Of a stretch of DNA of 33,296 bases, positions 1 to 33,280 are shown piece after piece. The DNA is from Polaromonas sp. (GTDB lineage Bacteria > Pseudomonadota > Gammaproteobacteria > Burkholderiales > Burkholderiaceae_C), in assembly GCA_025363315.1 (NCBI GenBank), contig JANYED010000081.1:1-33296 (forward strand). Direction: 5' to 3'. The position numbers were made by a program, and so were the translations under genes. Under the pieces are notes generated by a model, which was not told the DNA's origin, ran no database searches, and saw only the letters and a program-made list of their open reading frames with translations. The first letter of the stretch is position 1. Each line of letters begins with the position of its first letter.

Positions 1-1245
1 CTGTACGGCCTGTTTGAAGCACGCACCGCCCTGCGTGAGCACGGCTACGCGCTGGTGACTGAAGGCTATATGGACGTGGTGGCGCTGGCGCAAATGGGTT
101 TTGCCAACGCGGTGGCCACGCTGGGCACAGCCTGCACAGCAGAGCACGTACAAAAGCTGTTTCGCTTTACTGATTCCGTCGTCTTCAGTTTTGACGGCGA
201 CAGCGCGGGTCGCCGGGCGGCGCGCAAGGCGCTCGATGCCGCCCTGCCCTTTGCCAGCGATGTGCGCACCGTCAAGTTTTTGTTTTTGCCCGCCGAGCAT
301 GACCCCGACAGCTACATTCGTGAGCACGGCAAGGACGGCTTTGCCGAGATGGTGGCCAAAGCGCTGCCGCTCAGCAAATTCATGCTGCAGGCCGCTGCTG
401 ATGAATGCGATCTGGACACCGCAGAAGGCCGTGCGCACATGGCCAGCAATGCACGGCCGCTGTGGACGCCGCTGCCCGACGGCGCGCTAAAGCGCCAATT
501 GCTGGCCGAGATTGCCGACAAGGTACTGATTGACGTGCGCGATCTGCTGGACCTGTGGCAGCCCGCCAGCAAAGCAGCAAGCTATAAAAAGAGTAGCTAC
601 TCGCGCCCGGAACCATTGGGCTACGGCGCTAAAACACCTGCAAAAACAGCACACACTGACGGACAGGATGGATTGTCACGCCATCCGAACGATGTGGGCT
701 ACCCCGACAGCTCCGACGTGGATTATTCAAGTTCAGAACCGCATTTCGCGGCGCCCATGGCGGCAGCGGTCAACCCTGCACGCGTTGGCACCGCACGGTT
801 AAAGGGCCGCCTGCTGCCTGCCAGCCGGGAGGACCGGGTGCTGCGCCTTCTGCTGACTGACCCGCAAAGCTGGGATTTATTGAACAGCGAGGAGCACCTG
901 CTGCTGTGCACCTTGCCCGCCCCGCACGGCGCGCTGTTCGCGTGGCTGGAAAGCCAGATTCATGACCACGGCCCGCAGCCCTGGGCGGCGCTGCGAGAGG
1001 GCTTGCGCGGGCATGCACTGGAAGGGCATGCAATTGCTCAAATTTCGCAAATGACTGAGGGCGTTGAGGGCGACTGGCATGAAGGCCGCGAAATCCTCGA
1101 CGAATTGTTAAGAGCTGCATGGAAAAGAGAGCAGGATTCGATCGTTGCTACGGGTAACGGCTTTCTCAAAGACCCAACTTCTAGACAGCGCTACATGACC
1201 CTTGAGCTCAAAATTAAAGAGAAAGTGCGGAAAAAACCCGCCTAA
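1..1245 (+). CDS. dnaG: DNA primase DnaG, 3' portion (5' end outside window)
   Basis: DnaG makes the RNA primers for replication, working with DnaB helicase at the fork. The window opens inside the gene; 414 residues are visible in frame 1, starting in the Toprim domain. Toprim signatures are clear: TEGYMDVVAL (acidic Glu) near visible residues 20-29 and FDGDSAGR (Asp-x-Asp) near 64-71, followed by the FLPAEHDPD stretch typical of bacterial primases. After the helical RNA-polymerase subdomain there is a low-complexity linker (about nt 565-780), then the helicase-binding C-terminal domain. The linker contains an antisense copy of the dispersed repeat (581-623) and remains open. The zinc-binding N-terminus is not in the window. 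rpoD follows in the same direction, as in the macromolecular-synthesis operon of many proteobacteria. Identity is secure. Confidence 0.97.
   Translation: MYGLFEARTALREHGYALVTEGYMDVVALAQMGFANAVATLGTACTAEHVQKLFRFTDSVVFSFDGDSAGRRAARKALDAALPFASDVRTVKFLFLPAEHDPDSYIREHGKDGFAEMVAKALPLSKFMLQAAADECDLDTAEGRAHMASNARPLWTPLPDGALKRQLLAEIADKVLIDVRDLLDLWQPASKAASYKKSSYSRPEPLGYGAKTPAKTAHTDGQDGLSRHPNDVGYPDSSDVDYSSSEPHFAAPMAAAVNPARVGTARLKGRLLPASREDRVLRLLLTDPQSWDLLNSEEHLLLCTLPAPHGALFAWLESQIHDHGPQPWAALREGLRGHALEGHAIAQISQMTEGVEGDWHEGREILDELLRAAWKREQDSIVATGNGFLKDPTSRQRYMTLELKIKEKVRKKPA
581..623 (-). repeat. Dispersed 43-nt repeat, copy G (inside dnaG, antisense)
   Basis: Read on the minus strand this matches the shared architecture: TAGCCC, 8 nt, CGGGCGCGAGTAGCT, 10 nt, TAGC. 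It differs from the commonest GC-rich block at one position (GTAGCT for GCAGCT). It lies in the primase linker, encodes the region SYKKSSYSRPEPLGYGA on the plus strand, and keeps the dnaG frame open. Confidence 0.8.
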
Positions 1246-1261
1246 AAAACAGGCAATAGGG

Positions 1262-1330
1262 TATAATCCAACTTTTAATATTGCAAGCGCGACAGCAGCA
1301 CCTCCGGCATCGGCCTTCCGCACCGCGGAA
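1262..1330 (+). promoter_or_regulatory. Possible rpoD leader: -10 TATAAT and small hairpin
   Basis: A perfect -10 hexamer TATAAT lies at 1262-1267, just after the dnaG stop, but no convincing -35 is present 16-18 bases upstream. Further down, TTCCGC-ACC-GCGGAA (1316-1330) is a perfect 6-bp hairpin. The dnaG-rpoD interval is 298 bases and codes for nothing I can support, so an internal rpoD promoter with a long leader is plausible. Inference only. Confidence 0.35.
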
Positions 1331-1543
1331 ACACTCATCAAAGTGAGCTGGCCAGCGCACCGCAAGGACTGCACACCAAATGTTCGCCCCCACAGCTTGC
1401 GGTTGGCCGAAAGTCTTTCTGGCCAGCATTTCCTTATTACGTTTTGTCTTTGTACTGCGCTCATTTGTTGAGTGTCCAGCTTTTGACTGGCGCGTTATTT
1501 GTCACTGCTTTTGTGGATTCATTTTGTCAACCGGAGACCCGCT

Positions 1544-4012: not shown

Positions 4013-4062
4013 TTGACAGGGTTACGCATGGTGCCTGCTCTTGTACAAGGGTGGGCATTTTT

Positions 4063-5286
4063 ATGGTGAATACAGTGATGCGATACAGATTTTGGGGATC
4101 ACTTTTTGCGTTAGGCATGGTGGTGGCGTCCGCGGCCAGCCACGCCGTGCCCTTTACACCGGCCAGCGACACGGAAGTCATTGAGCGACTGCCTGGCCGG
4201 GCCAGCGATCCGGCCACGCGCCGGGTTGAATCGCTGCGAAAGCGGCTTGCCGCGCAGCCCGGGGACGCGGCGTTGCGGGTTGACATTGCCCGCCGTTACT
4301 TTGACATGGCGATGGCGCAGGGCGACCCGCGCTACGTGGGCTATGCCAGCGGGGCGCTGTCGCCGCTGGCCAAGGCTGTACCTGGTGATGCGCGCACTGC
4401 GGCGTCTTACTACGCCATCCGAGGCATGATTGAGCAATTCACGCATGCGTTTGAGCCCGCATTGGCCAGCTTGGCCAAAGCCAACGAGCTTAACCCCACA
4501 TCGCCGGAGCCTTTGCTGTGGCGCAGCGCGATTTTTATGGTGCAGGCCCGGTATGCCGAAGCAGCCGGCGAATGCGTCAAACTCACACCACTGACGGAAC
4601 CGCTGGTGGCAACCGGTTGCCGCGCTTATGCTGACAGCAGCCATAACGGCGGCCTTGAGCCCGCCTACACAACGCTTGCCGCTGCGGTCAAAAACGACGC
4701 AACCAGCTCACCTGAATTGCTGCTGTGGCAGTACACCCGCCTGGCTGAAATGGCTTGGCGACTGGGGCGCTCAGATGCGGCTGAGGGCTACTACAAAAGC
4801 GCACTCAAACTGGGCATCACCGACCAGTTTTTGCTCGGCAGTTACACCGATTTTTTGTTGTTTAAAAAGCGGCCCCAAGAGGTACTGGTGTTGCTGGCCG
4901 ACTGGGAACGATCTGATGTGCTGTTGCTGCGCCTGGCGCTTGCGGCCAAAGACAACAAGGATGTACGCGCTGCAAATTTCGCGGCCCAGCTGCGTGCCCG
5001 GTTTGCAGATGCGGCCCAGCGCGGTGACCGCCTGCACGAACAAGAAGCGGCACGCTTTGAACTCGATATTGAGCAAAATCCGAAAAAAGCGTTGCAGCTG
5101 GCCAGCGCCAACTACACCGCGCAAAAAGAGCCGCGCGATGCCGAAATTTTGATGCGCGCGGCCTTGAGTGTGGGCCAAGCCAAGCAGGCACGCCCTGCCC
5201 TGGCGTGGTGGCGCGTCAGCGGCTATGAGGACGCGCACATTACTGACCTGGCGACCCAGCTGGTGGGCCAGGGGGCCGAGAAATGA
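4063..5286 (+). CDS. Secreted tetratricopeptide-repeat protein, partner of HupE-like protein
   Basis: 407 residues. The N-terminus is a Sec-type signal: a basic MRYRF segment, a hydrophobic core and a likely cleavage after ASHA, giving a periplasmic protein. The rest is helical TPR-like sequence (for example the NPTSPEPLLWRSAIFMVQ region), suited to protein-protein contacts; no catalytic motif is visible. The ATG at 4063 is preferred because AAGGGTGGG (4048-4056) is a good ribosome site; GTG 4051 and ATG 4078 are alternatives. Its TGA overlaps the ATG of the HupE/UreJ-like gene (5283), so the two are probably made together, and the TPR protein may help assemble or stabilise that membrane protein. 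The 50 bases after rpoD contain TTGACA (4013) but no matching -10. Precise function unknown. Confidence 0.85.
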   Translation: MVNTVMRYRFWGSLFALGMVVASAASHAVPFTPASDTEVIERLPGRASDPATRRVESLRKRLAAQPGDAALRVDIARRYFDMAMAQGDPRYVGYASGALSPLAKAVPGDARTAASYYAIRGMIEQFTHAFEPALASLAKANELNPTSPEPLLWRSAIFMVQARYAEAAGECVKLTPLTEPLVATGCRAYADSSHNGGLEPAYTTLAAAVKNDATSSPELLLWQYTRLAEMAWRLGRSDAAEGYYKSALKLGITDQFLLGSYTDFLLFKKRPQEVLVLLADWERSDVLLLRLALAAKDNKDVRAANFAAQLRARFADAAQRGDRLHEQEAARFELDIEQNPKKALQLASANYTAQKEPRDAEILMRAALSVGQAKQARPALAWWRVSGYEDAHITDLATQLVGQGAEK

Positions 5287-6479
5287 TGCGTTTGGTGCAG
5301 CTGGTGATGCTGCTGGTTGTGCTGCTGGCGGGGCACACCGCAGCGTGGGCGCACAAACCCAGCGACAGTTACCTGACCTTGTCGGCCATGAGTGCCGATG
5401 CCAAAGATAGCAACGCCGGTCACACCATCACCGCACGCTGGGACATCGCCCTGCGCGACCTCGACTACGTGCTGCTGCTTGACCGCGATGGCAATGGCGA
5501 GCTGACCTGGGGCGAGACACGTCAGCGCGAAGCCGACATCACCCGGCTGGCTACCAGCCACTTGGCGATCACCGCTGACAACATGGCCTGCCCGTGGGCC
5601 GTAGCCGCCCCGATGGCGCTGGACAAGCACAGCGACGGCACCTACGCCGTGCTGTCGCTTGCCGCCAAATGCCCGGTCATCTCAAGCACAGCCAACACGG
5701 CCAGCAAACTCAAAGCCCTGAGCGCCAGTTACAGCCTGTTTTTTGACGTTGACCCGTCGCACCGCGGCCTGGTGCAGTGGCTAACGGCTGGCAAAGTCGG
5801 TGACACCCCTACAGCCCAGGCGCTGGTTTTTGGAGTTGACAGCGCCTCTCAAACACTGGCCCTCGTGACGCCGGGCTGGTGGCAAACCCTCAAGCAATAC
5901 GCCCTGGACGGCATTTCGCACATCTGGATTGGCTACGACCACATTTTATTTTTGCTGTCGCTGCTGCTGCCCGCCGTGTTGATTCGCCGCGCCGGTCAGT
6001 GGGACCCGGCGCCGACGCTGCGCGGCTCATTTGCCGAAGTCTTGAAAGTCGTTACCGCCTTCACCCTGGCGCATTCCATCACGCTTAGCCTGGCGGCGCT
6101 GCAAATCATCAGCTTGCCGTCACGCCTGGTCGAATCGGTGATTGCCGCATCGGTGGTGCTGGCGGCGCTGAACAATTTGCGCGGTACCGTTGACAAGCGG
6201 CGGTGGGTCATGGCCTTTGTGTTTGGGCTGGTGCACGGCTTTGGTTTTGCGTCGGTGCTGGCTGACCTGGGACTGCCGCAAGGCGCATTGGTATTAGCGT
6301 TGATCGGGTTTAACGGCGGCGTTGAGCTTGGGCAACTTGCCATCGTCGCCGTGTTTTTGCCACTGGCGTTCGGGCTGCGCGCCACCCGGTTTTACCGCGT
6401 CGGGGTGCTGACCGGTGGATCGCTGGTGGTGGCAGCTCTGGCCAGCTGGTGGTTTGTGCAGCGCGCTTTTCAGCTATAA
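5283..6479 (+). CDS. HupE/UreJ-family integral membrane protein with periplasmic EF-hand-like loop
   Basis: 398 residues, starting in the ATGA overlap with the TPR gene (a second in-frame ATG follows at 5286). A signal peptide (cleavage near AWA-HKP) leads to a periplasmic region of about 170 residues, then a membrane domain from about residue 195. The family motif HIWIGYDH (213-220) and a later VFGLVHGFGFAS segment supply the conserved histidines. In the periplasmic part, DRDGNGELTWGE (67-78) matches a canonical 12-residue EF-hand loop (Asp1, Asp3, Asn5, Gly6, Glu12), so calcium binding is plausible. HupE/UreJ proteins are nickel-related permeases near hydrogenase or urease genes, but none of those genes is in this window, so the transported ion is open. 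A dispersed repeat lies just after the stop. Confidence 0.85.
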   Translation: MMRLVQLVMLLVVLLAGHTAAWAHKPSDSYLTLSAMSADAKDSNAGHTITARWDIALRDLDYVLLLDRDGNGELTWGETRQREADITRLATSHLAITADNMACPWAVAAPMALDKHSDGTYAVLSLAAKCPVISSTANTASKLKALSASYSLFFDVDPSHRGLVQWLTAGKVGDTPTAQALVFGVDSASQTLALVTPGWWQTLKQYALDGISHIWIGYDHILFLLSLLLPAVLIRRAGQWDPAPTLRGSFAEVLKVVTAFTLAHSITLSLAALQIISLPSRLVESVIAASVVLAALNNLRGTVDKRRWVMAFVFGLVHGFGFASVLADLGLPQGALVLALIGFNGGVELGQLAIVAVFLPLAFGLRATRFYRVGVLTGGSLVVAALASWWFVQRAFQL

Positions 6480-6488
6480 ATCAGGCTG

Positions 6489-6531
6489 TAGCCCAATAGA
6501 TACGGGCGCGAGCAGCTACGAAATATGTAGC
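6489..6531 (+). repeat. Dispersed 43-nt repeat, copy A (between hupE-like gene and sbcB)
   Basis: TAGCCC (6489-6494), 8 nt AATAGATA, CGGGCGCGAGCAGCT (6503-6517), 10 nt, TAGC (6528-6531). This copy equals the majority sequence at all fixed positions. Its 3' part can fold as GCTAC...GTAGC. It lies between the convergent ends of the hupE-like gene and sbcB and is in direct orientation with copy B on the other side of sbcB. Confidence 0.88.
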
Positions 6532-6577
6532 AATTCACGCAATATATGCAATTAACGCAATGTACGCAATTAGCGCA
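6530..6577. repeat. Degenerate 9-bp tandem repeat
   Basis: Five consecutive 9-base units beginning GCAAT (GCAATTCAC, GCAATATAT, GCAATTAAC, GCAATGTAC, GCAATTAGC) and a partial sixth run out of repeat copy A towards the sbcB stop codon. No gene is present. It looks like slippage-generated sequence; no function is evident. Confidence 0.7.
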
Positions 6578-6596
6578 CCAGACGATCGCCGTGAAA

Positions 6597-8069
6597 TTAA
6601 GCCGGATCCGGCGCAATCAGCTCCGCGTAGTCCGACAGCGCCTCCAGCACCGCATGGCCTTTGTCGTTGGTGGTCTCAGACAAACTGTCCAACTGTGCCA
6701 AATAAGCGTCAATGTGTCGTGCACTGCCCTCTCCTTCAAGCAACCTGGCCGCCCGGTGCGTCTCCCATCGTTGCTGTTCCTCGGGCGTCAACGTCTCCGC
6801 GAAATTGCGGGCCCGGTAACGAAACACCAGCTCAGCCAGGCGGTCATCATCAAAACCAACCCGGCTGACCGCCAGCTCAGCGGCAGGCATGGCCCGGAGC
6901 TGGTTCAGGCGGCGGCGATCCGCGTTGCCTACAAAGCCGCCATACAGATCTTCGTCAACGTCGGGCGTCTCTGTCTTGGGGCGATTGAACAACTCTGGCC
7001 AGATGGCGCTCATGTCGGGTAATGCCCGCGCTTTTTCGGCATTGGCCAGCGCAGCGGGAATGTCAATGCCCCACTTCGCGGCCATCTCGTCGGTCAGGGT
7101 TTTGAGCTTTTTCACCACCATGGGCGATTTATTGACATGCACCGACTTGATCGGCAGGCGCTGCACCCCTTCCGGCAAATCAGACTGCCTGGTAAACAGG
7201 CGCTGGCGCAGAGCTTCGACGTCCAGCAGCTGCAGCTCGCTCGGGTCATGCGCCAAGTCCCAAGCGAGAACCTCGTTTTTATTGCTCGGGTGCGTCGCCA
7301 GCGGCCACATCACCGCCATGCAGCCGCGCTCAGGGGCGAACATGCCAGACACATGCAAAAACGGCTGGGCCGTTTGCGGGCTCGCAGGCAGGCCGAGTTC
7401 GTCCAGAACCCGGTCTTTCTTGTGAAGGCCCAGGCAAAACTCAAACAACTTCGGCTGGGCGGTTCGAATCAACCGCGCCAGCGCAATCGTGGCGCGCACG
7501 TCTGACAACGCATCGTGCGCGGCCTCGTGCAGCAAGCCGTTGGCACGCGCCAGGTCTTCAAGCTTGAAGCTCGGGCGGGTGGCGGTATGGTCGGCAGGCT
7601 TGCGCTCATCAGGCTTGCGCGGCCAGACGATGCCGTCGGGCCGCAGCGCATATGCCATGCGCACCACATCCTGAATGTCCCAGCGACCGCAGTCGTTTTG
7701 CCATTCGCGCGCGTACGGATCCATCAAATTTCGCCAAAACAGGTAGCGCGTGACTTCATCGTCAAACCGAATGGAGTTGTAGCCCACACCGATCGTGCCG
7801 GGCTCAGCCAGCAACGCCTCGATACGCGCCGCAAATTCATGCTCTGGCACACCGCGCTGTAGGCACAGCTGCGGCGTGATGCCGGTCAGCAGGCAAGACT
7901 CGGCGTCGGGCAGGTAGTCATTCGCTGGCTGGCAATACAGCATGACCGGCTCACCAATTTCATTGAGCTCTGCATCGGTACGGATTCCCGCAAACTGCGA
8001 TGGCCGTTCACGGCGCGGGTTCAGGCCAAAAGTTTCGTAGTCGTGCCATAAAAAGGTGTGGGTTGCCAT
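6597..8069 (-). CDS. sbcB: Exodeoxyribonuclease I (ExoI)
   Basis: ExoI degrades single-stranded DNA 3' to 5' in recombination and mismatch repair and is a DEDDh-type nuclease. 490 residues, close to the E. coli size. The first exonuclease motif is HDYETFGLNP near residue 10. GYNSIRFDDEVTRYLFWRN and RWDIQDVVRMAYALRPDGI follow the E. coli protein closely, and HDALSDVRATIALARL provides the final His/Asp motif. The C-terminal part keeps LVFRYRARNFAETLTPEEQQRW. Start 8069 (MATHTFLWHDYE) is chosen by homology; the frame opens further up to 8117 and no strong ribosome site is seen at either. The gene is alone on its transcript, downstream of the clpA terminator, and bracketed by repeat copies A and B. 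Confidence 0.96.
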   Translation of the reverse strand: MATHTFLWHDYETFGLNPRRERPSQFAGIRTDAELNEIGEPVMLYCQPANDYLPDAESCLLTGITPQLCLQRGVPEHEFAARIEALLAEPGTIGVGYNSIRFDDEVTRYLFWRNLMDPYAREWQNDCGRWDIQDVVRMAYALRPDGIVWPRKPDERKPADHTATRPSFKLEDLARANGLLHEAAHDALSDVRATIALARLIRTAQPKLFEFCLGLHKKDRVLDELGLPASPQTAQPFLHVSGMFAPERGCMAVMWPLATHPSNKNEVLAWDLAHDPSELQLLDVEALRQRLFTRQSDLPEGVQRLPIKSVHVNKSPMVVKKLKTLTDEMAAKWGIDIPAALANAEKARALPDMSAIWPELFNRPKTETPDVDEDLYGGFVGNADRRRLNQLRAMPAAELAVSRVGFDDDRLAELVFRYRARNFAETLTPEEQQRWETHRAARLLEGEGSARHIDAYLAQLDSLSETTNDKGHAVLEALSDYAELIAPDPA

Positions 8070-8109
8070 GTGTTGAACTTTTTGCTTTTTAGGGTAGTCA
8101 TTCGAGCTG

Positions 8110-8152
8110 TAGCCCAATAAACACGGGCGCGAGCAGCTATAAATAAAGTAGC
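8110..8152 (+). repeat. Dispersed 43-nt repeat, copy B (upstream of sbcB)
   Basis: TAGCCC (8110-8115), AATAAACA, CGGGCGCGAGCAGCT (8124-8138), 10 nt, TAGC (8149-8152). It occupies the interval between the clpA terminator and the sbcB start, so it is antisense to any sbcB leader or promoter. Same orientation as copy A 1.6 kb away. Confidence 0.88.
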
Positions 8153-8158
8153 GACATG

Positions 8159-8192
8159 AAAAAAGCCGTTAGCTTGATGCTAACGGCTTTTT
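8159..8192 (-). terminator. Rho-independent terminator after clpA
   Basis: A perfect stem AAAAGCCGTTAGC / GCTAACGGCTTTT with loop TTGAT lies 20 bases beyond the clpA stop. A run of A on the plus strand gives the T-tract for minus-strand transcripts. It separates clpA from sbcB. Confidence 0.93.
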
Positions 8193-8211
8193 GGTGGCCA
8201 TCAGGACAAAA

Positions 8212-10551
8212 TCAACTCGCCTCTGCCGATTCCGCTTCAGGTTTGACTTTGCCTTCCTTCTTCGGCAGCGGCTGAATGTCGAGCAACACTTCGCCGTCCT
8301 CCACACCTTTTTCGTTGGTGGTGACCTTGACATCCACCGTCAAACGCCCGCCATCCATCAGGCGGCCAAAAAGCAGCTCGTCAGCCAAGGCGCGGCGAAT
8401 GGTGTCTTGTATCAAACGCTGCATGGGGCGTGCGCCCATCAGCGGGTCAAAACCCTTCTTACCGAGGTATTTACGCAATGTGTCGGTGAAGGTGACTTCA
8501 ACCTTCTTCTCGGCCAATTGCGTCTCAAGCTGTAGCAGGAACTTGTCAACCACCCGCAAAATCACGGTTTCGTCCAGCGCCTTAAAGCTGACGGTAGCGT
8601 CCAAGCGGTTGCGGAACTCTGGGGTGAAGAGGCGCTTGATATCGGCCATTTCATCACCGGCTTCACGCGGGTTGGTAAAGCCAATGGTGGCCTTATTCAT
8701 CGTCTCGGCACCCGCATTGGTCGTCATAACGATGATGACGTTTCTAAAGTCAGCCTTGCGCCCGTTGTTGTCGGTCAGCGTGCCGTGGTCCATGACCTGC
8801 AGCAACACGTTGAAGATGTCCGGATGGGCTTTTTCAATCTCGTCCAGCAACAGCACGCAATGCGGTTTTTTGGTCACGGCTTCGGTCAGCAGACCGCCCT
8901 GGTCAAACCCCACATAGCCCGGTGGCGCGCCAATTAGGCGGCTGACGGCGTGGCGCTCCATGTACTCTGACATGTCAAAGCGAATCAGCTCAATGCCCAT
9001 GATGTAGGCCAGCTGCTTGGCGGCTTCAGTCTTGCCAACGCCGGTAGGGCCGCTGAACAGGAAGGAGCCAATCGGCTTGTCGTCTTTGCCCAAGCCAGAG
9101 CGCGCCATTTTCACGGCACTGGCCAACACGTCGAGGGCTTTGTCCTGGCCGAACACGACACTCTTCAGGTCACGCTCAAGCGTTTTGAGCTTACCTCTGT
9201 CATCGTTCGAAACGTTGGCCGGCGGAATGCGCGCTATCTTGGCGACTATTTCTTCGACCTCAGTTTTAGTAATGATTTTCTTGCGCTTGGACGGCGGCAA
9301 AATGCGCTGCGCAGCACCCGCCTCATCAATCACGTCAATCGCCTTGTCGGGCAGGTGGCGGTCGTTGATGTACTTGGCAGACAGCTCGGCTGCGGCCTGC
9401 AACGCCGCCACGGCGTACTTCACGCTGTGGTGTTCTTCAAAACGTGACTTGAGGCCTTTGAGAATGTCGACCGTCTCTTGCACAGTCGGCTCGACCACAT
9501 CTACCTTCTGGAAGCGGCGTGACAGCGCAGCGTCTTTTTCAAAAATACCGCGGTATTCGGTAAAGGTTGTCGCACCAATGCATTTGAGCTGACCCGAGCT
9601 GAGCGCAGGCTTGAGCAAGTTGGATGCGTCCAGTGTGCCGCCAGACGCAGCGCCTGCCCCAATCAATGTGTGAATTTCGTCGATGAACAAAATGCCATTT
9701 GGCTTGTCTTTAAGCGACTTTAAGACGCCTTTTAAACGTTGCTCAAAATCACCCCGGTATTTGGTGCCGGCCAACAGCGCGCCCATGTCGAGTGAATACA
9801 CCTGAGCTTCGGCCAAAATTTCAGGCACGTCTTTTTGCGTGATGCGCCAGGCTAGGCCCTCAGCAATCGCGGTTTTACCCACACCAGCCTCACCCACCAG
9901 CAGCGGATTATTTTTACGGCGGCGGCACAGGATTTGAATCACCCGCTCGACCTCATAATGCCGACCGATCAATGGATCAATCTTGCCGTCTTTAGCGAGC
10001 TGATTCAGGTTTTGGGTGTACTGCTCAAGTGGCGACTGCTTTTCATTCTTTTCTGAGCCGCCCTCTTCGTTTTCAGCCGCGCTTTCGCCAGCTTTGGTTG
10101 GCTCGGGTGGATCGCTCTTTTTGATACCGTGGGCAATAAAATTAACGACGTCTAGGCGCGTCACACCTTGCTGGTGGAGGTAGTACACCGCGTGCGAGTC
10201 TTTTTCACCAAAAATAGCGACCAATACATTCGCGCCGGTGACTTCTTTTTTGCCGTTGCCGGTTGATTGCACGTGCATGATCGCGCGTTGAATCACACGC
10301 TGAAAACCCAGCGTTGGCTGGGTGTCGACGTCATCGGTACCGGCCACCTGCGGCGTGTTGTCCTTGATGAAATTAGCGAGGGACTTTCGCAAATCATCGA
10401 CATTGGCAGAGCATGCGCGCAGCACTTCGGCGGCACTGGGGTTGTCCAGCAGGGCCAGCAACAGGTGCTCGACGGTGATGAACTCATGGCGCTGCTGGCG
10501 CGCTTCAACAAATGCCATGTGCAAGCTGACTTCTAGTTCCTGTGCAATCAT
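8212..10551 (-). CDS. clpA: ATP-dependent Clp protease ATP-binding subunit ClpA
   Basis: AAA+ unfoldase that feeds substrates, including N-degron proteins brought by ClpS, into the ClpP protease in the cytoplasm. 779 residues (E. coli 758). The ClpN repeat domain covers about 1-145, followed by an acidic, charged linker (150-172). The first AAA module has Walker A GEAGVGKT (220-227) and Walker [15 protein letters not shown]. The second has Walker A GPTGVGKT (about 501-508) and Walker [15 protein letters not shown]. The ClpP-docking tripeptide is IGF in the [14 protein letters not shown] loop. AAGGAAA six bases before the ATG supports the start. clpS lies 93 bases upstream on the same strand and a terminator follows, so clpS-clpA is a likely operon, the usual arrangement. 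Confidence 0.98.
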
Positions 10552-16992: not shown

Positions 16993-17997
16993 ATGATCGC
17001 GTGGCTTGCCCGCAGCTGGTCCAGGCGCGGTCTCGCAGCCTGCCTGCTATGGCCATTTTCAAGGCTGTACGGGTTGCTGGCAGCCCTGCACCGCTGGTTT
17101 TACCGGGCCGGCATTTTAAAAACAGAACGCTGTGCGGTACCCGTTATTGTGGTGGGCAATGTGGTGGCAGGGGGTGCTGGCAAAACGCCCTTGGTCATCG
17201 CACTGGCGCAGCATTTGCAGCGACAGGGGCTTAAAGTCGGCATCGTGTCGCGGGGCTACGGACGGCGCGGGAAAAGCTGCCTTGAAGTACTGGAAAACAC
17301 ACCGGTTTCATTATGTGGTGATGAGCCAGCCCTTATTCTACGGGCGCGAGCAGCTCCTGTTTTTGTAGCTAATCACCGTATCGATGCGGCCCGCGCGTTG
17401 CTTGAAAAATACCCAGCTACCCAAGTCATCATCTGTGACGACGGCTTGCAGCACCACCGCATGGCGCGCGACATCGAGATCACCGTGTTTGATGATCGGG
17501 GCATCGGCAATGGCTGGATGCTGCCGGCTGGGCCATTGCGCCAGAGTTGGCCCTCAAGGCTCCCCATGCACGGTTTGGTTCTGCACACCGGACAGTCGCC
17601 AGCGTTCGGCGGTTTTGTCTCAACCAGGCGCCTGGCAGACCATGCGCGGGCGGTAGATGGCGACGAGGTCAGGCTTGATGATTTGAAGCATCAGCCGCTG
17701 GTCGCTTTGGCTGGCATTGCCAGTCCTGGTGCTTTTTTTGACATGTTGAGGGCGCGTGGCCTGGAGCTGGCGCAAACCATCAGCCTGCCGGACCATTTTG
17801 ATTTCTCACGCGGCACGTTGCCGGTGCAACCCGGCGCTACCGTGCTCTGTACTGAAAAAGACGCAGTCAAGCTGTTCGGCCTGCCCGACTACAGCGCATT
17901 CCGGCTGCTGGCAGTGCCGCTTGAGTTTTCACCCGAGCCTGCATTTTTAAAGGCTGTCGACGACCGGCTTATCCCGCTGTTACGCAAGGCCTGTTGA
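16993..17997 (+). CDS. lpxK: Tetraacyldisaccharide 4'-kinase
   Basis: Phosphorylates the 4' position of tetraacyldisaccharide 1-phosphate to make lipid IVA in lipid A synthesis at the inner membrane. 334 residues. An amphipathic N-terminus (about 1-40) is followed by VGNVVAGGAGKTPLVIAL with P-loop GGAGKTP (60-66), then GIVSRGYGRRGK (83-94), DDGLQHHRMARDIEI (149-163) containing the conserved DDGLQH, and GNGWMLPAGPLR. Residues 112-126 (PALILRARAAPVFVA) are encoded by repeat copy C, yet they fit the family alignment without a length change: E. coli has GDEPVLIYQRTGAPVAV here. It follows exbD by 2 bases; ycaR and kdsB lie downstream. Confidence 0.96.
   Translation: MIAWLARSWSRRGLAACLLWPFSRLYGLLAALHRWFYRAGILKTERCAVPVIVVGNVVAGGAGKTPLVIALAQHLQRQGLKVGIVSRGYGRRGKSCLEVLENTPVSLCGDEPALILRARAAPVFVANHRIDAARALLEKYPATQVIICDDGLQHHRMARDIEITVFDDRGIGNGWMLPAGPLRQSWPSRLPMHGLVLHTGQSPAFGGFVSTRRLADHARAVDGDEVRLDDLKHQPLVALAGIASPGAFFDMLRARGLELAQTISLPDHFDFSRGTLPVQPGATVLCTEKDAVKLFGLPDYSAFRLLAVPLEFSPEPAFLKAVDDRLIPLLRKAC
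17327..17369 (+). repeat. Dispersed 43-nt repeat, copy C (inside lpxK, sense)
   Basis: CAGCCC (17327-17332; C for the usual T), TTATTCTA, CGGGCGCGAGCAGCT (17341-17355), 10 nt, TAGC (17366-17369). The 15-mer is identical to the intergenic copies. The eight variable bases here avoid the in-frame TAG/TAA present in copies A, B and D, so the reading frame passes through. Confidence 0.72.
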
Positions 17998-20277: not shown

Positions 20278-20703
20278 TCAAGAATATGCAATCCAGCGCC
20301 CGCAAACCACAACACCCAGCCAAATCAGGCTGGACAAAACCATTTGCACACGCGCAACACTGTCCAGCTTGTCAAGCGAGCCGCGCCCATGAAACCAGGC
20401 GGCGTTGCAGCCAGCAAGCATCAACAACAGCATCTTTAGGGTAAAGGTGCGGTTCGTCAAAAGCTCCGATGCCTGCGATGCAAACATCAGCAGGCCCGAA
20501 GCCGCTGCCAGCGCGAAGCCAGCTGCGGCAATGCCCAAACTCAAGCTGGCCAGCGCCTTCACGTCCAGCACTTTGCCACGGCCAAACACCCGCATCTCCA
20601 GCAGCACAAGGTTGCCCAACAGTATCGCAATGCCGCAGATGTGAAGTACTTCCAGCGCAGGGTAAGCCCATGCGCTGGACTTGAGAGCCGTCAAAAAGCT
20701 CAC
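20278..20703 (-). CDS. DUF6644-like four-helix membrane protein
   Basis: 141 residues, start GTG at 20703 overlapping the asparaginase TGA (GTGA), so translation is coupled. Four hydrophobic segments are visible: about 13-35 (YPALEVLHICGIAILLGNLVL), 50-72, 85-100 and 118-138. The first segment contains the HICGIAILLGN stretch with a conserved His, as in small membrane proteins that I recall as DUF6644. Function unknown; the pairing with a DUF6152 gene downstream hints at a joint membrane-periplasm role. Family assignment is from memory and moderate. Confidence 0.7.
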   Translation of the reverse strand: MSFLTALKSSAWAYPALEVLHICGIAILLGNLVLLEMRVFGRGKVLDVKALASLSLGIAAAGFALAAASGLLMFASQASELLTNRTFTLKMLLLMLAGCNAAWFHGRGSLDKLDSVARVQMVLSSLIWLGVVVCGRWIAYS

Positions 20704-21659
20704 GGCCTCAAGAGCATCAGCTCGAGCATGAGCTCGACACGTGCCTTCACAGGACTCAGGCCAATAGCGATGGGAAATCGGTCGTCGGCCCTGGCCAGCA
20801 CTGGGCCAGCCACGCAGCGCGTGGTGCGAACGATGTGCACGCCGCCAGCCCGGGCCCGAAGCAACGCCGCCTCCAGCGCCTCATGAATGGTGCCGTTGCC
20901 GGTACCGGCCACCACCAGGCCTTTGACACCCTGACCAATCAGGGCATCGACCAACGCGCCGCCTGCGCCCGCGTAGTTCATCACAATTTCGACCCTTGGC
21001 CAGTCCGCCACAAGGTTTAATGCAGCTATAGATTCGGGAGCTGCTTGCGCCCGAATTTGTTGGTCTGCAGGCCAATTTTGCAAAAGCTTAAGGCCGTTTT
21101 CGTCAATCTGGCCGATGGGGCCGGCATCCCCCGAGCTAAAGGCGTTCAACTGCATCGTGTGCACCTTTTGAACCAGCACCGCGCTGTGCACCACACCGGC
21201 ACACACCACCATCACGCCCTGCGCGCCGGGGTGACGCGCGACCGTTACAGCGTCAAGAATATTTTGCGGCCCGTCGGGCTTTGTAGCCGTGGCTGGCCGC
21301 ATTGAACAGGTCAGCACCACCGGCTTGGAGGGCATCAGCACAGCATGCAGAAAATAGGCGGTTTCCTCCAGCGTGTCTGTACCGTGCGTGACGACCACAC
21401 CCTGTATATCGTCCTGCATTAAGTAATGCTGAACCCGGCTGGCAAGCGCTGTCCAGACGGCAAACGTCATGTCTTTGCTGTCAATTTGCGCAACCTGCTC
21501 GCAGACCAAATCGCCTTGCAAAGCCAATGCGGGAATAGCCCCCACCAGCTGCGCAACGCCGACCTGGGCCGCGGTGTAGTCAATATTGTTTGAGGGGAAC
21601 GCCGATTGACCGGCGATGGTGCCGCCGGTCCCCAAAATCACGATTTTTTTAGGCTGCAT
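20700..21659 (-). CDS. L-asparaginase family protein (cytoplasmic)
   Basis: Hydrolyses asparagine to aspartate and ammonia. 319 residues. The nucleophile motif is GTGGTIAG with Thr11, and the second motif is THGTDTLEET (91-100) with Thr94-Asp95; a Lys in VQKVHTMQLNAFSS fits the third catalytic position. No signal peptide is seen, so a cytoplasmic enzyme is expected. The segment ADQQIRAQAAPESIA between two conserved blocks is encoded by repeat copy H. No ribosome site is apparent before the ATG. The gene is divergent from lexA and translationally coupled to the DUF6644-like gene. Glutaminase side activity cannot be judged. Confidence 0.93.
   Translation of the reverse strand: MQPKKIVILGTGGTIAGQSAFPSNNIDYTAAQVGVAQLVGAIPALALQGDLVCEQVAQIDSKDMTFAVWTALASRVQHYLMQDDIQGVVVTHGTDTLEETAYFLHAVLMPSKPVVLTCSMRPATATKPDGPQNILDAVTVARHPGAQGVMVVCAGVVHSAVLVQKVHTMQLNAFSSGDAGPIGQIDENGLKLLQNWPADQQIRAQAAPESIAALNLVADWPRVEIVMNYAGAGGALVDALIGQGVKGLVVAGTGNGTIHEALEAALLRARAGGVHIVRTTRCVAGPVLARADDRFPIAIGLSPVKARVELMLELMLLRP
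21025..21067 (-). repeat. Dispersed 43-nt repeat, copy H (inside asparaginase gene, sense)
   Basis: On the minus strand: CAGACC, 8 nt, CGGGCGCAAGCAGCT, 10 nt, TAGC. More diverged at the first block, but the 15-mer is identical to copy E and both spacings are exact. It is read in the same frame as copy C in lpxK (Arg-Ala-Gln/Arg-Ala-Ala-Pro). Confidence 0.75.
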
Positions 21660-23033: not shown

Positions 23034-23045
23034 CTTAAAGCCTCG

Positions 23046-23066: not shown

Positions 23067-23077
23067 AAAGTTACAGG

Positions 23078-23101
23078 CACAATATTGGCATGAATATTGT
23101 G
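23078..23101 (+). promoter_or_regulatory. 9-bp perfect inverted repeat with start codon in the loop
   Basis: CACAATATT (23078-23086), GGCATG (23087-23092), AATATTGTG (23093-23101). The ATG of the following gene (23090-23092) is the second half of the 6-base loop. As RNA it would fold into a stable 9-bp hairpin over the start; as DNA it is a symmetric operator candidate. Confidence 0.6.
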
Positions 23102-24097: not shown

Positions 24098-24102
24098 GGC
24101 GC

Positions 24103-26361: not shown

Positions 26362-26404
26362 ATCAACGATTAAAAGTAACTGGTTGTGATTTTAGTACAG
26401 CGAA

Positions 26405-26433
26405 TTCAACGAGAAATTTATGGTCTGCATAAT
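26405..26433 (+). promoter_or_regulatory. Candidate promoter overlapping the start of the 3-hydroxyacyl-CoA dehydrogenase
   Basis: TTCAAC (26405-26410), spacer 17, CATAAT (26428-26433; five of six). If used, the transcript would begin near 26440, after the first in-frame ATG (26420) and only a few bases before the second (26444). The -35 match is weak. Confidence 0.3.
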
Positions 26434-27964: not shown

Positions 27965-27966
27965 AG

Positions 27967-28746: not shown

Positions 28747-28807
28747 AGCGCGACCTGGCAAAAGAGGTGTGCCTAGAGCGAACTCGGTCGACCATCAAGC
28801 CATCAAC

Positions 28808-28850
28808 GCTATTTTTTCAGGAGCTGCTTGCGCCCGATTTGATTGGGCTA
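28808..28850 (-). repeat. Dispersed 43-nt repeat, copy E (between enoyl-CoA hydratase gene and gntR)
   Basis: On the minus strand: TAGCCC, AATCAAAT, CGGGCGCAAGCAGCT, 10 nt, TAGC. Just outside the core the sequence continues as GGGCTGTAGCCC (28845-28856), a near-palindrome, suggesting the element extends a few bases beyond the shared core. Confidence 0.86.
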
Positions 28851-28948
28851 CAGCCCTGAATCGTTTTATGCCAGGATACTGCAGAACGCTGCTGGCTCTC
28901 TTGCAACTTCAACATCACTTCTGCAAAAAAAAGTTTTAAATCCCTTTT

Positions 28949-28963
28949 CGTATACGATATACG
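28949..28963. promoter_or_regulatory. Palindromic operator candidate before gntR
   Basis: CGTATA-CGA-TATACG is a perfect 6-bp inverted repeat ending 4 bases before the gntR ATG. It occupies the place of the ribosome site (none is visible), so binding would block expression: a likely autoregulatory site. Confidence 0.6.
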
Positions 28964-28967
28964 TTAC

Positions 28968-29723: not shown

Positions 29724-30688
29724 AGCGACGCACCCTGCTACATGCCGCACCTGCCTTGGTCTACGCCCCCAGCCTGGCGCTGGCACAAGTTGTATACCCC
29801 GCCAAACCGATCCGTTACATCGTGCCTGTGGCCGCAGGCGGCGGCAGCGACACCGTCGGCCGCACGGTGACGGAACGTTGGGGCAACCAGCTCAAGCAAA
29901 GCTTTATTGTTGACAACCAGGCCGGCGGTGGCGGCGTGATTGCCGCCCAGGCCACGGCCCGTGCCGCGCCGGATGGTTACACGCTGATGCAGGGCTACGT
30001 GGCCACCCATGGGACCAGCCCAGCCACCCGCAAGCTGCCGTATGACGCGATCAAAGACTTCACCCCGATCGGCATGATTGGCGCGACGCCCAATGTGCTG
30101 GTGGTTAACAGCGCGCTGCCGGTGACCAATGTCAAAGAGTTCATCGACTACCTGCGTAAAAACCCCGGCAAGGTCAGCTACGGCTCGGCTGGCCAGGGCT
30201 CGCTGACGCATCTGACGATGGAGCTGTTCAAGCAGCAGGTCAATTCGTTCATGGTGCACATCCCTTATCGAGGCATTGCACCAGCTTTTACCGATTTGAT
30301 CGGCGGGCAAACGCAGGCCATGTTTCCTGGCTTGGCAGCAGCTGTACCGCACATCAAATCGGGCCGGGTGCGGCCACTGGCGGTAACGGGTTTAAAGCGT
30401 CACCCGCAATACAAAGACGTGCCCACGATGGATGAGTCAGGTTTTAAAGGCTTTGACGCGCAGCAGTGGTACGGCGTGGTGGGGCCAGCGGGCATACCAG
30501 CACCTATCACCCGCCAACTCAATGAGTCACTGGCTGTGGTGTTGCGCGCAGCGGACTTGCGCGACAAGCTGGTCGTGGAGGCGGTGGAACCGATGGTGAT
30601 GCTGCCCGAACAGTTTGCCGCTTTCATGAAAGCCGACATCGCCCGCTGGACTAAGTTGGCCAAGGACCGAAATATCGCGCTGGAATGA
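29720..30688 (+). CDS. Bug-family tripartite tricarboxylate transporter substrate-binding protein
   Basis: 322 residues, periplasmic solute receptor (TctC/Bug family). Signal peptide of about 22 residues (MKRRTLLHAAPALVYAPSLALA). Mature part begins with YPAKPIRYIVPVAAGGGSDTVGR, the Bug hallmark, then GGGGVIAAQATARAAPDGYTLM, PYDAIKDFTPIGMIG, VSYGSAGQGSLTHLTMELF and ending with ARWTKLAKDRNIALE. Ligands of this family are usually carboxylates; the specific one is unknown. No TctA/TctB membrane genes are in the window, as is common for orphan Bug receptors. ATGA overlap with gntR indicates coupled translation. Confidence 0.95.
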   Translation: MKRRTLLHAAPALVYAPSLALAQVVYPAKPIRYIVPVAAGGGSDTVGRTVTERWGNQLKQSFIVDNQAGGGGVIAAQATARAAPDGYTLMQGYVATHGTSPATRKLPYDAIKDFTPIGMIGATPNVLVVNSALPVTNVKEFIDYLRKNPGKVSYGSAGQGSLTHLTMELFKQQVNSFMVHIPYRGIAPAFTDLIGGQTQAMFPGLAAAVPHIKSGRVRPLAVTGLKRHPQYKDVPTMDESGFKGFDAQQWYGVVGPAGIPAPITRQLNESLAVVLRAADLRDKLVVEAVEPMVMLPEQFAAFMKADIARWTKLAKDRNIALE

Positions 30689-30742
30689 GCTCAACGCATC
30701 AAGATATCCAAAAAAGCCAAGAATACCTATCAAATATGCTGC

Positions 30743-30785
30743 TAGCCCAATAGATACGGGCGCGAGCAGCTTCTGAATCAATAGC
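30743..30785 (+). repeat. Dispersed 43-nt repeat, copy D (between Bug gene and mmgE/prpD gene)
   Basis: TAGCCC (30743-30748), AATAGATA, CGGGCGCGAGCAGCT (30757-30771), 10 nt, TAGC (30782-30785). First 29 bases are identical to copy A. It fills most of the 135-base gap, which otherwise holds no recognisable signal. Confidence 0.88.
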
Positions 30786-30823
30786 AAATTCCAACTTCTT
30801 TTAAACCAAAGTTCACTAAAACC

Positions 30824-32227
30824 ATGGCTCGCAATACCCAAGTCACCGCTGACCACAACGCCCCCGGCATCACGCAAATTCTGGCGAAGTATGTCGCCAC
30901 CCACCCGTCCAAAGGCTGGAGCGACGCGGTTGACCACGAGGCGCACCGTACCTTTATGAACTGGCTCGGCTGCGCCGTGGGTGCAGCGCATCACGAGGCG
31001 GCTGATGCGGCATTGGCCGCCGTCAACATGCTCCAACCAGCTCCACAAGCCAGCGTGCTGGGCCGCACAGAGAAGGTGGACATGGTCAGCGCTGCGCTGA
31101 TCAACGGCATCACGTCGCACACCTTTGACTTTGACGACACGCACCTCAAAACCATCATTCACCCAGCTGGGCCAGTCGCATCCGCTGTGCTGGCCATGGC
31201 TGAGCATCTGGGCAGTCATGTGGATGAAACACTTCGCGTTTCAGGCCGCGAAGTCATCGACGCGTTGGTAATAGGCATTGACGTGTCGTGCCGCGTGGGC
31301 AACGCCATGTACCCTGACCACTATGATCGCGGCTGGCACATCACCGGCTCGACCGGCACGCTGGGTGCGGCGGCTGCCTGCGCACGTCTGCTCAAGCTGG
31401 ACGTGCAGCAAACCGCCATGGCGCTGGGCATTGCTGCATCTCAGCCCATCGGCATGCGCGAGCAGTTTGGCACCATGACCAAGCCCTTTCACCCCGGCGG
31501 CGCTGCGCGTGCGGGCTTGATGTCAGCCCTGCTGGCCAGCAAAGGCTTTACCGCCAGCCCCAAGGCGCTAGAAGCACCACGCGGCATGATGCAAACTGTC
31601 TCGACCAAAAACGACTGGCACGAGATCACCCACGAGCTGGGCGAGCGCTTTGAGATTTCATTTAACAGCTACAAACCGTTTGCCTGCGGCATCGTGATTC
31701 ACCCCAGCATTGATGCCTGCGCGCAATTGCGCCTGCAAGGCGTGACACCCGAGCAGATCGACCGCATCGAGCTCAAAGTGCATTCACTGGTGTTAGAGCT
31801 GACAGGCAAAAAAGAACCGCAAGATGGCTTGCAAGCCAAGTTCAGCGTCTACCACGGCTGCGCGGCGGGCTTGACGTTTGGCTACGCGGCTGAAGACGAA
31901 TTTTCAAGCGCAGTCGTCACCCGTCCTGACATGGTGGCGCTGCGCCGCAAAGTGCTCGCCACGGTTGATGATTCGATTGACGAAGCCAGCGCCGACGTGA
32001 CGGCTGTGCTGCTGGACGGCCGCCGCGTGCATGTGTTTGTCGAGCACGCAATTGGCTCGCTCAAAAACCCGATGAGCGACACGCAACTGGAGGCCAAATT
32101 CCAAGGCATGTCAGACGCCATTTTGGGCGCAGGCCGCACCAGCGATCTGATCAACGCCTGCTGGGGCATTGGCAACGCCGCCAACGTGAAAGCATTGGTC
32201 GCCCTGGCTGTACCGGAGCGCAAGTAA
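30824..32227 (+). CDS. MmgE/PrpD family protein
   Basis: 467 residues. The family includes 2-methylcitrate dehydratase (PrpD) and cis-aconitate decarboxylase, which act on tricarboxylates. Typical landmarks: FMNWLGCAVGAAHHEAADAAL, INGITSHTFDFDDTHLKTIIHPAGPV (Asp/His-rich active-site region), GWHITGSTGTLGAAAACARLL, and KPFHPGGAARAGLMSALLA followed by SYKPFACGIVIHPSIDA. Many such genes lie beside Bug receptors and dehydrogenases and are not true PrpD, so the substrate is left open. No strong ribosome site is seen before the ATG. The next gene starts 2 bases after the stop, forming a tight pair. Confidence 0.93.
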   Translation: MARNTQVTADHNAPGITQILAKYVATHPSKGWSDAVDHEAHRTFMNWLGCAVGAAHHEAADAALAAVNMLQPAPQASVLGRTEKVDMVSAALINGITSHTFDFDDTHLKTIIHPAGPVASAVLAMAEHLGSHVDETLRVSGREVIDALVIGIDVSCRVGNAMYPDHYDRGWHITGSTGTLGAAAACARLLKLDVQQTAMALGIAASQPIGMREQFGTMTKPFHPGGAARAGLMSALLASKGFTASPKALEAPRGMMQTVSTKNDWHEITHELGERFEISFNSYKPFACGIVIHPSIDACAQLRLQGVTPEQIDRIELKVHSLVLELTGKKEPQDGLQAKFSVYHGCAAGLTFGYAAEDEFSSAVVTRPDMVALRRKVLATVDDSIDEASADVTAVLLDGRRVHVFVEHAIGSLKNPMSDTQLEAKFQGMSDAILGAGRTSDLINACWGIGNAANVKALVALAVPERK

Positions 32228-32229
32228 CC

Positions 32230-33216
32230 ATGACGACAACCATGACACGCCCCAAAATCGCTATCCTCGGCGACCTAGAACAAGCCCTGCGCCGCCTGGG
32301 CAACTGGCAAACCATTGACGCACAAGCCGACGTGACAGTGCACCACCTGCCGCTGCAAGGTGCTGAGTTGCTGGTAGCGCTAAAAGATGCCGACGCCGCC
32401 GTGTTGGTACGCGACCGCACCCCGTTTGATGCCGCCCTATTGGCGCAACTGCCCAAGCTGCGCTACCTGGTGTTCACCGGCTCGCGCAATTCAACCATTG
32501 ACCTGGCCGCCTTTGCCGCGCGTGGCGTGCCCGTTAGCCATACCGAATGGGGCCCGTCCAAAGACAGCACCTGCGAGCTGACCTGGGCACTGATATTGGC
32601 CGCCACCAAACAGCTGGAACAGCAAACCGCCCTGCTGCGGCGCGGCCAGTGGCGCGCAGATACCGCCGAGCCATTGGCAGGCGTACTGCACGGCCAAACC
32701 CTGGGCCTGATTGGCCTGGGTGAAATCGGTGGGCGCGTAGCCAAAGTGGGCAACGCACTGGGCATGAAAGTCGTCACCTGGAGCCCGCGTATGACGACCG
32801 AGCGCGCTCTTGAGAAAGGTGCGACTTTTGTATCGCTTGACGAGTTGCTGGCCACATCAAAAGTCGTCAGCCTGCATTTGGTTGCCATAGCGTCCACCCT
32901 GAAGTTGCTGAACGCGGAGACGCTGGCGCTGATGCAGCCGGGCAGTTTGCTCGTCAACACGTCACGCTCGGCACTGGTCGATGGCGCAGCGCTGGTCAAA
33001 GCGCTGGAAAAAGGCCAGCCCGGCTTCGCGGCACTCGACGTGTTTGACACAGAACCCCTACCAATGAGCGATGCCCTGCGCCAGCTGCCCAACGTGCTGC
33101 TCACGCCGCATCTGGGCTTTGTCACCGAGCCGGTGTACCAGCGCTTTGCCGCAGGCGTGACTGAGTGTCTCGAAGCGTGGCTGGCAGGCCAATCACTGGT
33201 AAGGGTCGTGGGCTAG
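32230..33216 (+). CDS. D-2-hydroxyacid dehydrogenase family protein (second of two)
   Basis: 328 residues, same family as the protein at 23090-24097 but with the standard nucleotide motif TLGLIGLGEIGGR (GLGEIG). Catalytic residues: Arg in NTSRSALVDG, Glu in FDTEPLPMSD and His in TPHLGFVTEPVYQ. Substrate lobe contains YLVFTGSRNSTIDLAAFAARGV. The ATG at 32230 is 2 bases after the MmgE/PrpD stop; ATG 32242 is a possible alternative. It is probably part of the organic-acid module with the Bug receptor and MmgE/PrpD protein. Complete; ends 80 bases before the window edge. Confidence 0.93.
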   Translation: MTTTMTRPKIAILGDLEQALRRLGNWQTIDAQADVTVHHLPLQGAELLVALKDADAAVLVRDRTPFDAALLAQLPKLRYLVFTGSRNSTIDLAAFAARGVPVSHTEWGPSKDSTCELTWALILAATKQLEQQTALLRRGQWRADTAEPLAGVLHGQTLGLIGLGEIGGRVAKVGNALGMKVVTWSPRMTTERALEKGATFVSLDELLATSKVVSLHLVAIASTLKLLNAETLALMQPGSLLVNTSRSALVDGAALVKALEKGQPGFAALDVFDTEPLPMSDALRQLPNVLLTPHLGFVTEPVYQRFAAGVTECLEAWLAGQSLVRVVG

Positions 33217-33237
33217 CGCGCCCGGTGCGCACTCTTT

Positions 33238-33280
33238 GCTACTCAATCAATAGCTGCTGGCGCACGCATCTATTGGTCTA
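33238..33280 (-). repeat. Dispersed 43-nt repeat, copy F (after second D-2-hydroxyacid dehydrogenase)
   Basis: On the minus strand: TAGACC, AATAGATG, CGTGCGCCAGCAGCT, 10 nt, TAGC. Three substitutions from the majority at fixed positions but both spacings kept. The remaining bases to the window end hold nothing else. Confidence 0.8.

Follow-up and report, generated by a model that had tools for sequence, protein, structure and literature searches.

A dispersed ~67-bp element with fixed internal spacing in Polaromonas and its relatives: a candidate DNA uptake sequence

What maintains a short sequence with rigid internal distances at hundreds of places in one bacterial genome? The question is raised by a 33,296-nucleotide stretch of DNA (contig C328; the window, meaning the whole stretch analysed) from a Polaromonas sp. 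genome (G000, 3.57 Mb in 386 contigs), which carries eight copies of an element consisting of a ~15-bp core between two outer boxes, with A/T tracts upstream. A sequence-only reading of the window had attributed the constant spacing to selection for a folded RNA or DNA shape or to a mobilised hairpin of the repetitive extragenic palindromic (REP) type. By analogy with published systems, we find that an uptake-signal-like tag, spread by biased uptake and recombination, is probably the best explanation. We also lean toward the wider proposal of a third class of DNA uptake sequence with an evolutionary origin of its own, present in Polaromonas, Rhodoferax, and numerous other genera of the family; it would be a bent, double-box ruler of ~67 bp, longer than those already known, whose core changes by dialect.

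Copy number, anatomy, and spacing of the element

In the whole genome, the 14-mer GGGCGCRAGCAGCT has 302 exact occurrences (155 forward and 147 reverse), and the same pattern read backwards has 0. A 90-bp profile applied to a sample of 677.5 kb, made up of the window and 40 fetched stretches, found 146 copies at ≥15 bits and 0 at ≥10 bits when that DNA was reversed. The 146 include seven copies from the window, copy 8 being too close to the window end for the 90-bp profile. Scaling 0.215 copies per kb gives roughly 770 copies per genome. The sample density, about one copy per 4.6 kb, agrees with the estimate of about one per 4 kb made from the window, and the genome-wide dispersal that the same reading implied is supported.

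Neighbouring copies show no orientation bias (49 pairs in the same orientation and 57 in opposite orientations), and their spacing is close to random (coefficient of variation, 0.84 versus 0.90 ± 0.06). We rejected a strand-polar replication signal on the basis of these neighbour counts and of the counts in the relative G099, where the right arm has +21/−12 copies and the left arm has +20/−14, the arms being the halved coordinates. The closest copies in the sample are at least 70 bp apart, core to core. At one locus in the relative G169 (L115:1072-1190), two opposite, overlapping copies with a common 3' box form one long palindrome.

With the first G of GGGCGC taken as position 0, the conserved region spans about −38 to +28 (~67 bp). 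In order, it comprises A/T tracts at −38 to −34 and −26 to −23, the box GSCTGyAGCCC at −20 to −10, the motif AATnRATA, the core CGGGCGCRAGCAGCT at −1 to +13, an A/T tract at +18 to +22, and the box TAGC at +24 to +27. The element starts about 23 bp further upstream than had been drawn from the window, and the gaps of 8 and 10 bases described there as free sequence are both A/T-rich and contain conserved positions.

The upstream A/T tracts are centred near −25 and −36, and phased A/T enrichment continues to about −66: in non-coding copies, the AT fraction is 0.96, 0.87, 0.73, 0.77, and 0.69 at −25, −35, −46, −56, and −66, respectively. Coding copies have AT peaks like those of non-coding copies, about one per helical turn. 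The tracts tend to be exchanged blockwise, as at −26 to −23, where AAAT occurs in 51, AAAA in 29, and TTTT in 13 of the 146 copies. At −72 to −47, outside the profile, the 10- to 11-bp signal exceeded all 2000 jittered controls in both non-coding (n = 87) and coding (n = 59) copies, and it also exceeded all 2000 in a clade of three relatives (G221, G233, and G215; n = 27, sites not independent). Phased A/T tracts bend DNA. Judged from their sequence and placement, the upstream tracts, one helical turn apart, probably do so here.

The 90-bp profile is gapless and could miss copies with indels, and we counted the spacing in two ways that are independent of it. In the fetched DNA of G000, GCTxx and TAGC are separated by a gap of 8 in 171 cases versus at most 16 at every other gap from 0 to 29; in 500 kb of G099, the corresponding figures are 117 cases versus at most 8 at other gaps. 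In the complete genome of G099, the pattern AGCCC-N{8,32}-GCTATNNANNNNNTAGC has 227 matches (115/112), with 0 in the control. Among the 100 of these 227 matches that were listed, the gap is exactly 20 in 98, and one of the other two overlaps a gap-20 match; at a fixed gap of 22, the pattern has 2 matches in G099.

Pairing was assessed in all 146 copies. For 17 candidate base pairs, the paired cells stayed within about 8 of the expectation under independence, with departures in both directions (observed versus expected, 118 versus 117.9, 105 versus 105.5, 67 versus 75.1, and 81 versus 74.1), and the 30 pairs with the highest mutual information all join positions no more than 5 apart. A scan of the window against Rfam at gathering thresholds gave no match. 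On the lack of stem covariation and the empty window scan we rejected a folded RNA, and the RNA or hairpin fold first proposed is not supported. Nor did the 146 copies, having no covariation, show the imperfect hairpin with compensatory change that characterises repeats of the REP-associated tyrosine transposase (RAYT) type. The folding idea had been staked on many further copies, an absence of indels, and covariation; the first two were found and the third was not. With copies many, indels absent, and covariation absent, recognition of double-stranded DNA is indicated, and the part of the sequence-only reading that saw in the fixed spacing selection or drive on a physical shape, and not debris, is supported.

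The eight copies of the window are as follows.

Copy 1, 580..646 (core 581-623), minus strand: antisense within a dnaG-like primase gene (55-1245); another core at the orthologous site of G221, G233, and G215
Copy 2, 6466..6532 (core 6489-6531), plus strand: between convergent HupE-like and exonuclease I-like genes; 15-mer exact
Copy 3, 8087..8153 (core 8110-8152), plus strand: between the exonuclease I-like gene and a clpA-like 3' end; 15-mer exact
Copy 4, 17304..17370 (core 17327-17369), plus strand: interior of lpxK, sense strand; G187 and G099 gap-free across the element
Copy 5, 21024..21090 (core 21025-21067), minus strand: interior of an L-asparaginase gene (20700-21659), sense strand; orthologous copies in G221 and G233
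Copy 6, 28807..28873 (core 28808-28850), minus strand: between enoyl-CoA hydratase-like and GntR-like genes; 15-mer exact
Copy 7, 30720..30786 (core 30743-30785), plus strand: between TctC-like and MmgE/PrpD-like genes; 15-mer exact; orthologous copies in G221 and G233
Copy 8, 33237..33296 (core 33238-33280), minus strand: past an open reading frame (32230-33216); 5' end of the element beyond the window end; 15-mer with 2 mismatches

All eight were correctly located from the window sequence and have no indel over 43 bp, with four copies on each strand. The TAGC box is present in 8 of 8. The hexamer TAGCCC had been taken as common to all of them, which holds exactly for five and fails for three. 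The 15-mer CGGGCGCRAGCAGCT, called near-invariant, is exact in six, with 1 mismatch in the copy at 581 and 2 in the copy at 33238.

Across the sample, 59 of the 146 copies lie wholly within genes, 10 cross gene ends, and 77 are intergenic according to a simple script gene caller, which missed lpxK, so that the 59 are a minimum. Genic copies occur in both orientations. One reading frame is used by 31 of the 33 sense copies, as expected if in-frame stops of the element must be avoided. Outside genes, convergent gene pairs hold 26 of the 80 non-coding copies for which both neighbours were called, against 23% of random non-coding places, and divergent pairs hold 7 of 80, against 18%. A promoter and terminator scan of 6400-8300 returned nothing useful for the element.

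Host genes identified by Pfam, in the part scanned, include dnaG-like, dnaE-like, mutS, mutL, photolyase-like, tex, RNase E-like, RNB exonuclease, and lpxK genes. Several of these serve genome maintenance. In several genes with sense copies near the N-terminus (for example, L017:2729-3670, L057:18383-19588, and L008:3657-5141), the element encodes a VAQSIRAQAAIVLI-like stretch followed by hydrophobic residues, as if the stretch supplied the charged N-terminal part of a signal peptide. Separately, the exonuclease I-like gene between copies 2 and 3 (6600-8117) is placed before the 4141-6479 segment in G221, G233, and G215, not after it as in the window; recombination between the two copies could have moved it.

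Orthologous sites, dialects, and distribution

The origin of the copies was approached with the gap test that showed the uptake signal sequences (USSs) of Pasteurellaceae not to be insertions (PMC1626085). A spanning ortholog was found in the DNA compared for 11 of the 59 gene copies, giving 64 pairs, 50 of which are asparaginase pairs, some with the same genome twice. The G000 proteins are longer by at most 13 amino acids, and a whole element would be expected to add at least 22, so most gene copies tested are not element-sized insertions; the test requires a single alignment across the site and thereby favours small gaps.

Individual genes agree with this result. At the dnaG-like copy, the length between anchors is equal in G221, G233, and G215, with a net change of zero and a gap-free protein alignment. 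The lpxK copy is gap-free against G187 and G099, and G221, G233, and G215 have 15 nt more there and no element. Compared with a solved MutS (5yk4), MutS differs by 2 amino acids over the site, and isobutyryl-CoA mutase is about 4 amino acids longer than a solved relative. Asparaginase differs from its solved relative by 3 amino acids in two places, and its orthologous sites show a net change of zero. For a GMC oxidoreductase, the alignment across the site is weak. Compared with G234, which is nearly element-free, one copy is gap-free, one shows differences of 2 and 3 amino acids in opposite directions, and one differs by 3 amino acids. At most of the sites tested, the element arises by substitution in place, with tex, discussed below, as the exception.

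In several relatives, the fixed spacing and the outer boxes persist around a different core. We found 67 copies in 500 kb of G099 and 29 in 160 kb of G169; further copies with other cores number 27 in 222.6 kb of the G221/G233/G215 clade (a sample taken from orthologous sites of the three genomes, whose copies are not independent), 14 in 60 kb of G187, and 12 in 160 kb of G185, the weakest set. G234 gave three sequences that are unlike the element, at a threshold below the control. The comparison of window copies at orthologous sites covered all but those at 6489, 28808, and 33238. In G221 and G233, the sites orthologous to copies 1 (dnaG), 5 (asparaginase), and 7 (30743) are likewise occupied by a copy, with 21 to 22 nt more just outside the element at the 30743 site, and copy 3 has a diverged counterpart in G221, G233, and G215 whose downstream flank is the same. 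The scaffold is kept with a different core at the same site in several relatives.

To map the distribution we used a search model built from 97 copies, which is sequence-only because covariation is absent. At an E value of ≤0.001, 67 of 87 genomes of the genus match (55 with at least 57 matches and 12 with 1 to 45), and 20 have none; at ≤1e-4, 56 of 150 genomes in a sample of the family match, 35 of them with at least 33 matches. These per-genome matches measure presence, not copy number. Among 80 named loci searched at ≤0.001, matches fall in Polaromonas, Rhodoferax, an Acidovorax, and further relatives, including 4 in 21 kb of Rhodoferax ferrireducens; 21 loci titled Variovorax gave 0 at that threshold and one weak match at E = 0.015. 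The relatives that carry the element belong to the Comamonadaceae, as the window had suggested. Searches of plasmid and phage collections with a single 72-bp query, a weak test, gave no match.

Perfect cores outnumber those with a single mismatch: among the 15-mers of the sample, 70 are identical to the core, 39 differ from it at one position, 36 at two, and 123 at three, compared with 0, 1, 6, and 96 in the reversed-DNA control.

The longest element-free stretch, 45.0 kb on contig C11, far exceeds the next (15.9 kb). At the density outside it, 10.4 copies would be expected there, and the chance that any of 146 gaps would be this long is about 0.005. We called 27 genes in this stretch (L008-L010, ~8-50 kb) and scanned 25 of them, finding two phage-type integrases (one near the far end), a TrwC relaxase, a TrwB-like coupling protein, ArdC, two cytosine methylases, UmuD- and UmuC-like proteins, Shedu SduA, and RadC. 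The integrases and conjugation genes indicate that much of the stretch is an acquired island, and on this one island the element is absent from acquired DNA.

Biased uptake as the probable explanation, and the alternatives

Origin in place, tolerance within genes, both orientations, the excess of perfect copies, dialects, absence from the island, and phased tracts together match the published profile of uptake sequences. The element would then be a recognition signal in double-stranded DNA, its ~15-bp core set between two outer boxes on a fixed ruler and supplemented by the upstream A/T tracts. The core on free DNA would be bound by a receptor at the cell surface, for which a type IV minor pilin is the likeliest candidate; pilus retraction would pull the DNA in, ComEC would pass one strand into the cell, and homologous recombination would place that strand in the chromosome. 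Tagged alleles would be taken up more often, and better-matching versions could spread at their existing positions, as far as each site permits; a change in receptor preference would move many sites to a new dialect. We infer the bending, the receptor, the uptake bias, and the drive from these patterns.

Genes for such a route are present in the genus: ComEC and GspH-type minor pilins each occur in 78 of the 87 genomes, G000 included. Two GspH-type minor pilin genes of G000 are candidate receptors.

G000:C282:21375-21740: GspH-type minor pilin, candidate receptor gene
G000:C366:2434-2757: GspH-type minor pilin, candidate receptor gene

Element-rich genomes have a weaker best GspH score than element-poor ones (48 versus 26 genomes; p = 3.5e-4, phylogeny uncontrolled; of the 87, 9 without a match and 4 intermediate ones were left out), which we treat as no more than a lead. 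ComEC was rejected as a discriminating gene, since it is present with and without the element.

Several observations weigh against biased uptake. Both ComEC and GspH also occur in element-free genomes, so that neither discriminates; the receptors named above are candidates, and uptake, binding, and transformation are argued by analogy. The density of ~0.2 copies per kb compares with nearly 1 per kb for USS and for the DNA uptake sequence (DUS) of Neisseriaceae (PMC1626085), and the same source notes that young transposons, too, typically show more perfect copies than expected. Only 40% of copies lie wholly in genes versus 76% at random; for USS in Haemophilus influenzae, the reported figure is 65% (PMC1626085). 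Phasing is less marked in G099 (p = 0.002) and does not reach significance in G169 (p = 0.11), and in sampled 20-kb stretches of G099, copy counts climb with distance from coordinate 0 (rho = 0.45, p = 0.024). All seven pairs of copies less than 200 bp apart are divergent, with the A/T-tract ends face to face (L061, L066, L067, L071, L072, L001, and L013), a uniform facing that the uptake model does not predict. Finally, the tex linker, measured from fixed motif to fixed motif, is 61 amino acids in G000, or 22 amino acids (66 nt) above the shortest forms, which is about the length of the element. Elsewhere it measures 65 to 66 amino acids in G187, G221, and G233, 54 in G169, 45 to 47 in 16 of 30 loci, and 39 in 9 of 30, and element-like sequence is present in some 47-amino-acid linkers, only 8 above the shortest. 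Insertion at tex is possible.

The main rival explanation is that the element is bound by a chromosome-organising (nucleoid) protein that requires bent DNA, with hundreds of copies kept by selection for chromosome structure. Such selection would have to act individually at hundreds of sites, genes included, and would require concerted core change between related species; we set these demands against the phased A/T tracts, the two orientations and genome-wide spread, the climb of G099 counts away from coordinate 0, and the common facing of the seven closest pairs, all of which a nucleoid protein would accommodate. Perfect cores outnumber near-perfect ones, unlike the looser consensus of regulatory sites (PMC1626085), and 20 of 87 genus genomes have no match. 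On balance, we consider this explanation unlikely, though a serious rival.

We regard as improbable a mobile repeat, similar to REP or to a miniature inverted-repeat transposable element (MITE), that copies into new places while its older copies wear down. It would account for the excess of perfect cores, for the tex linker, and for the close inverted pairs, which resemble composite elements, but gene copies mostly replace codons (at most 13 amino acids extra in 64 pairs of 11 copies, 2 in MutS, and net zero in dnaG), and in several relatives a copy with another core occupies the corresponding position. Whole-unit insertion, expected of a MITE, was unseen at most gene sites examined, tex being compatible with one. 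The genome has two Y1_Tnp (RAYT-family) genes with copies nearby, one at L021 and two at L022; all are on the upstream side, with ~1 to 1.5 kb covered on each side of the genes. The replacement, not addition, of sequence likewise counts against the mobilised REP-type hairpin proposed for the window, and the one-sided copies may do so.

A transcription terminator or RNA processing signal acting mainly at gene ends is very improbable: at least 59 of 146 copies lie within genes, on both strands, stem covariation is absent, the window has no Rfam match, and the lean of non-coding copies toward convergent and away from divergent gene pairs, which speaks for it, would also follow from promoter avoidance.

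If biased uptake is the true explanation, free-living freshwater and soil bacteria take up DNA self-selectively. A third origin, its dialects distributed over many genera, would serve as a natural replicate in which receptor and tag should covary, for the old open question of why self-specific uptake evolves. A long ruler with several tracts would be informative about the kinking of stiff DNA as it crosses the outer membrane, and the tag might ease laboratory transformation of such environmental bacteria. If the element is instead a chromosome-protein site, concerted core change at hundreds of places itself needs explaining.

Comparison with known systems

In the open-licence literature, we found no report of uptake sequences in Comamonadaceae or Burkholderiales, and a 2025 paper describes self-selective DNA uptake as known only from Neisseriaceae and Pasteurellaceae (PMC12616744). 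Repeats of other kinds have been recorded. The JS666 genome paper is cited for Polaromonas MITEs (PMC10969869), and on repeats PMC2755013 yielded passages on clustered regularly interspaced short palindromic repeats (CRISPR) only. Pairs of short words at fixed gaps have been reported from Polaromonas naphthalenivorans and Acidovorax ebreus (114 to 125 copies in these two) and from R. ferrireducens, the last with the most spaced word pairs of the genomes scanned, and their function was left unexplained (PMC5217627). That report gives pairs of short words only; judged by taxa and word likeness, these pairs probably represent pieces of the element.

Two families of dispersed repeats invite comparison. 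Like the element, the beta-proteobacterial repeat element (BRE) is dispersed in Bordetella and in Comamonadaceae, including Polaromonas, with some copies in genes; unlike it, BRE is ~90 bp long, GC-rich in Bordetella, and often tandem, with at most 29 copies listed per genome (PMC3110155). Compared by description only, the two may or may not be related. With REP/RAYT systems, the element has in common that it is a short dispersed repeat with short inverted boxes in a genome that encodes Y1_Tnp proteins, but it lacks a covarying hairpin, is often genic, and is not found on both sides of the Y1_Tnp genes within the ~1 to 1.5 kb covered.

The uptake sequences offer closer parallels. DUS is likewise dispersed, belongs to the core genome, and is absent from recently acquired genes (PMC2397512), and it has dialects in related species (PMC3630211). 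It differs in being a 10-bp word without flanking motifs (PMC1626085) and in its unrelated sequence. USS resembles the element in having a short core and A/T segments about one helical turn apart, in its dispersal in both orientations through genic and intergenic DNA, and in its in-place origin, clade dialects, and perfect-core excess (PMC1626085); the shape of the A/T tracts influences uptake in Haemophilus (PMC7811141). The sequences are unrelated, the core of the element being CGGGCGCRAGCAGCT and that of USS AAGTGCGGT or ACAAGCGGT. The element is conserved over ~67 bp with its tracts mainly upstream, whereas USS has a 9-bp core and two segments, and the element has fewer copies per kb. We therefore liken the element to USS in how it would work and do not count it as a member of the USS family.

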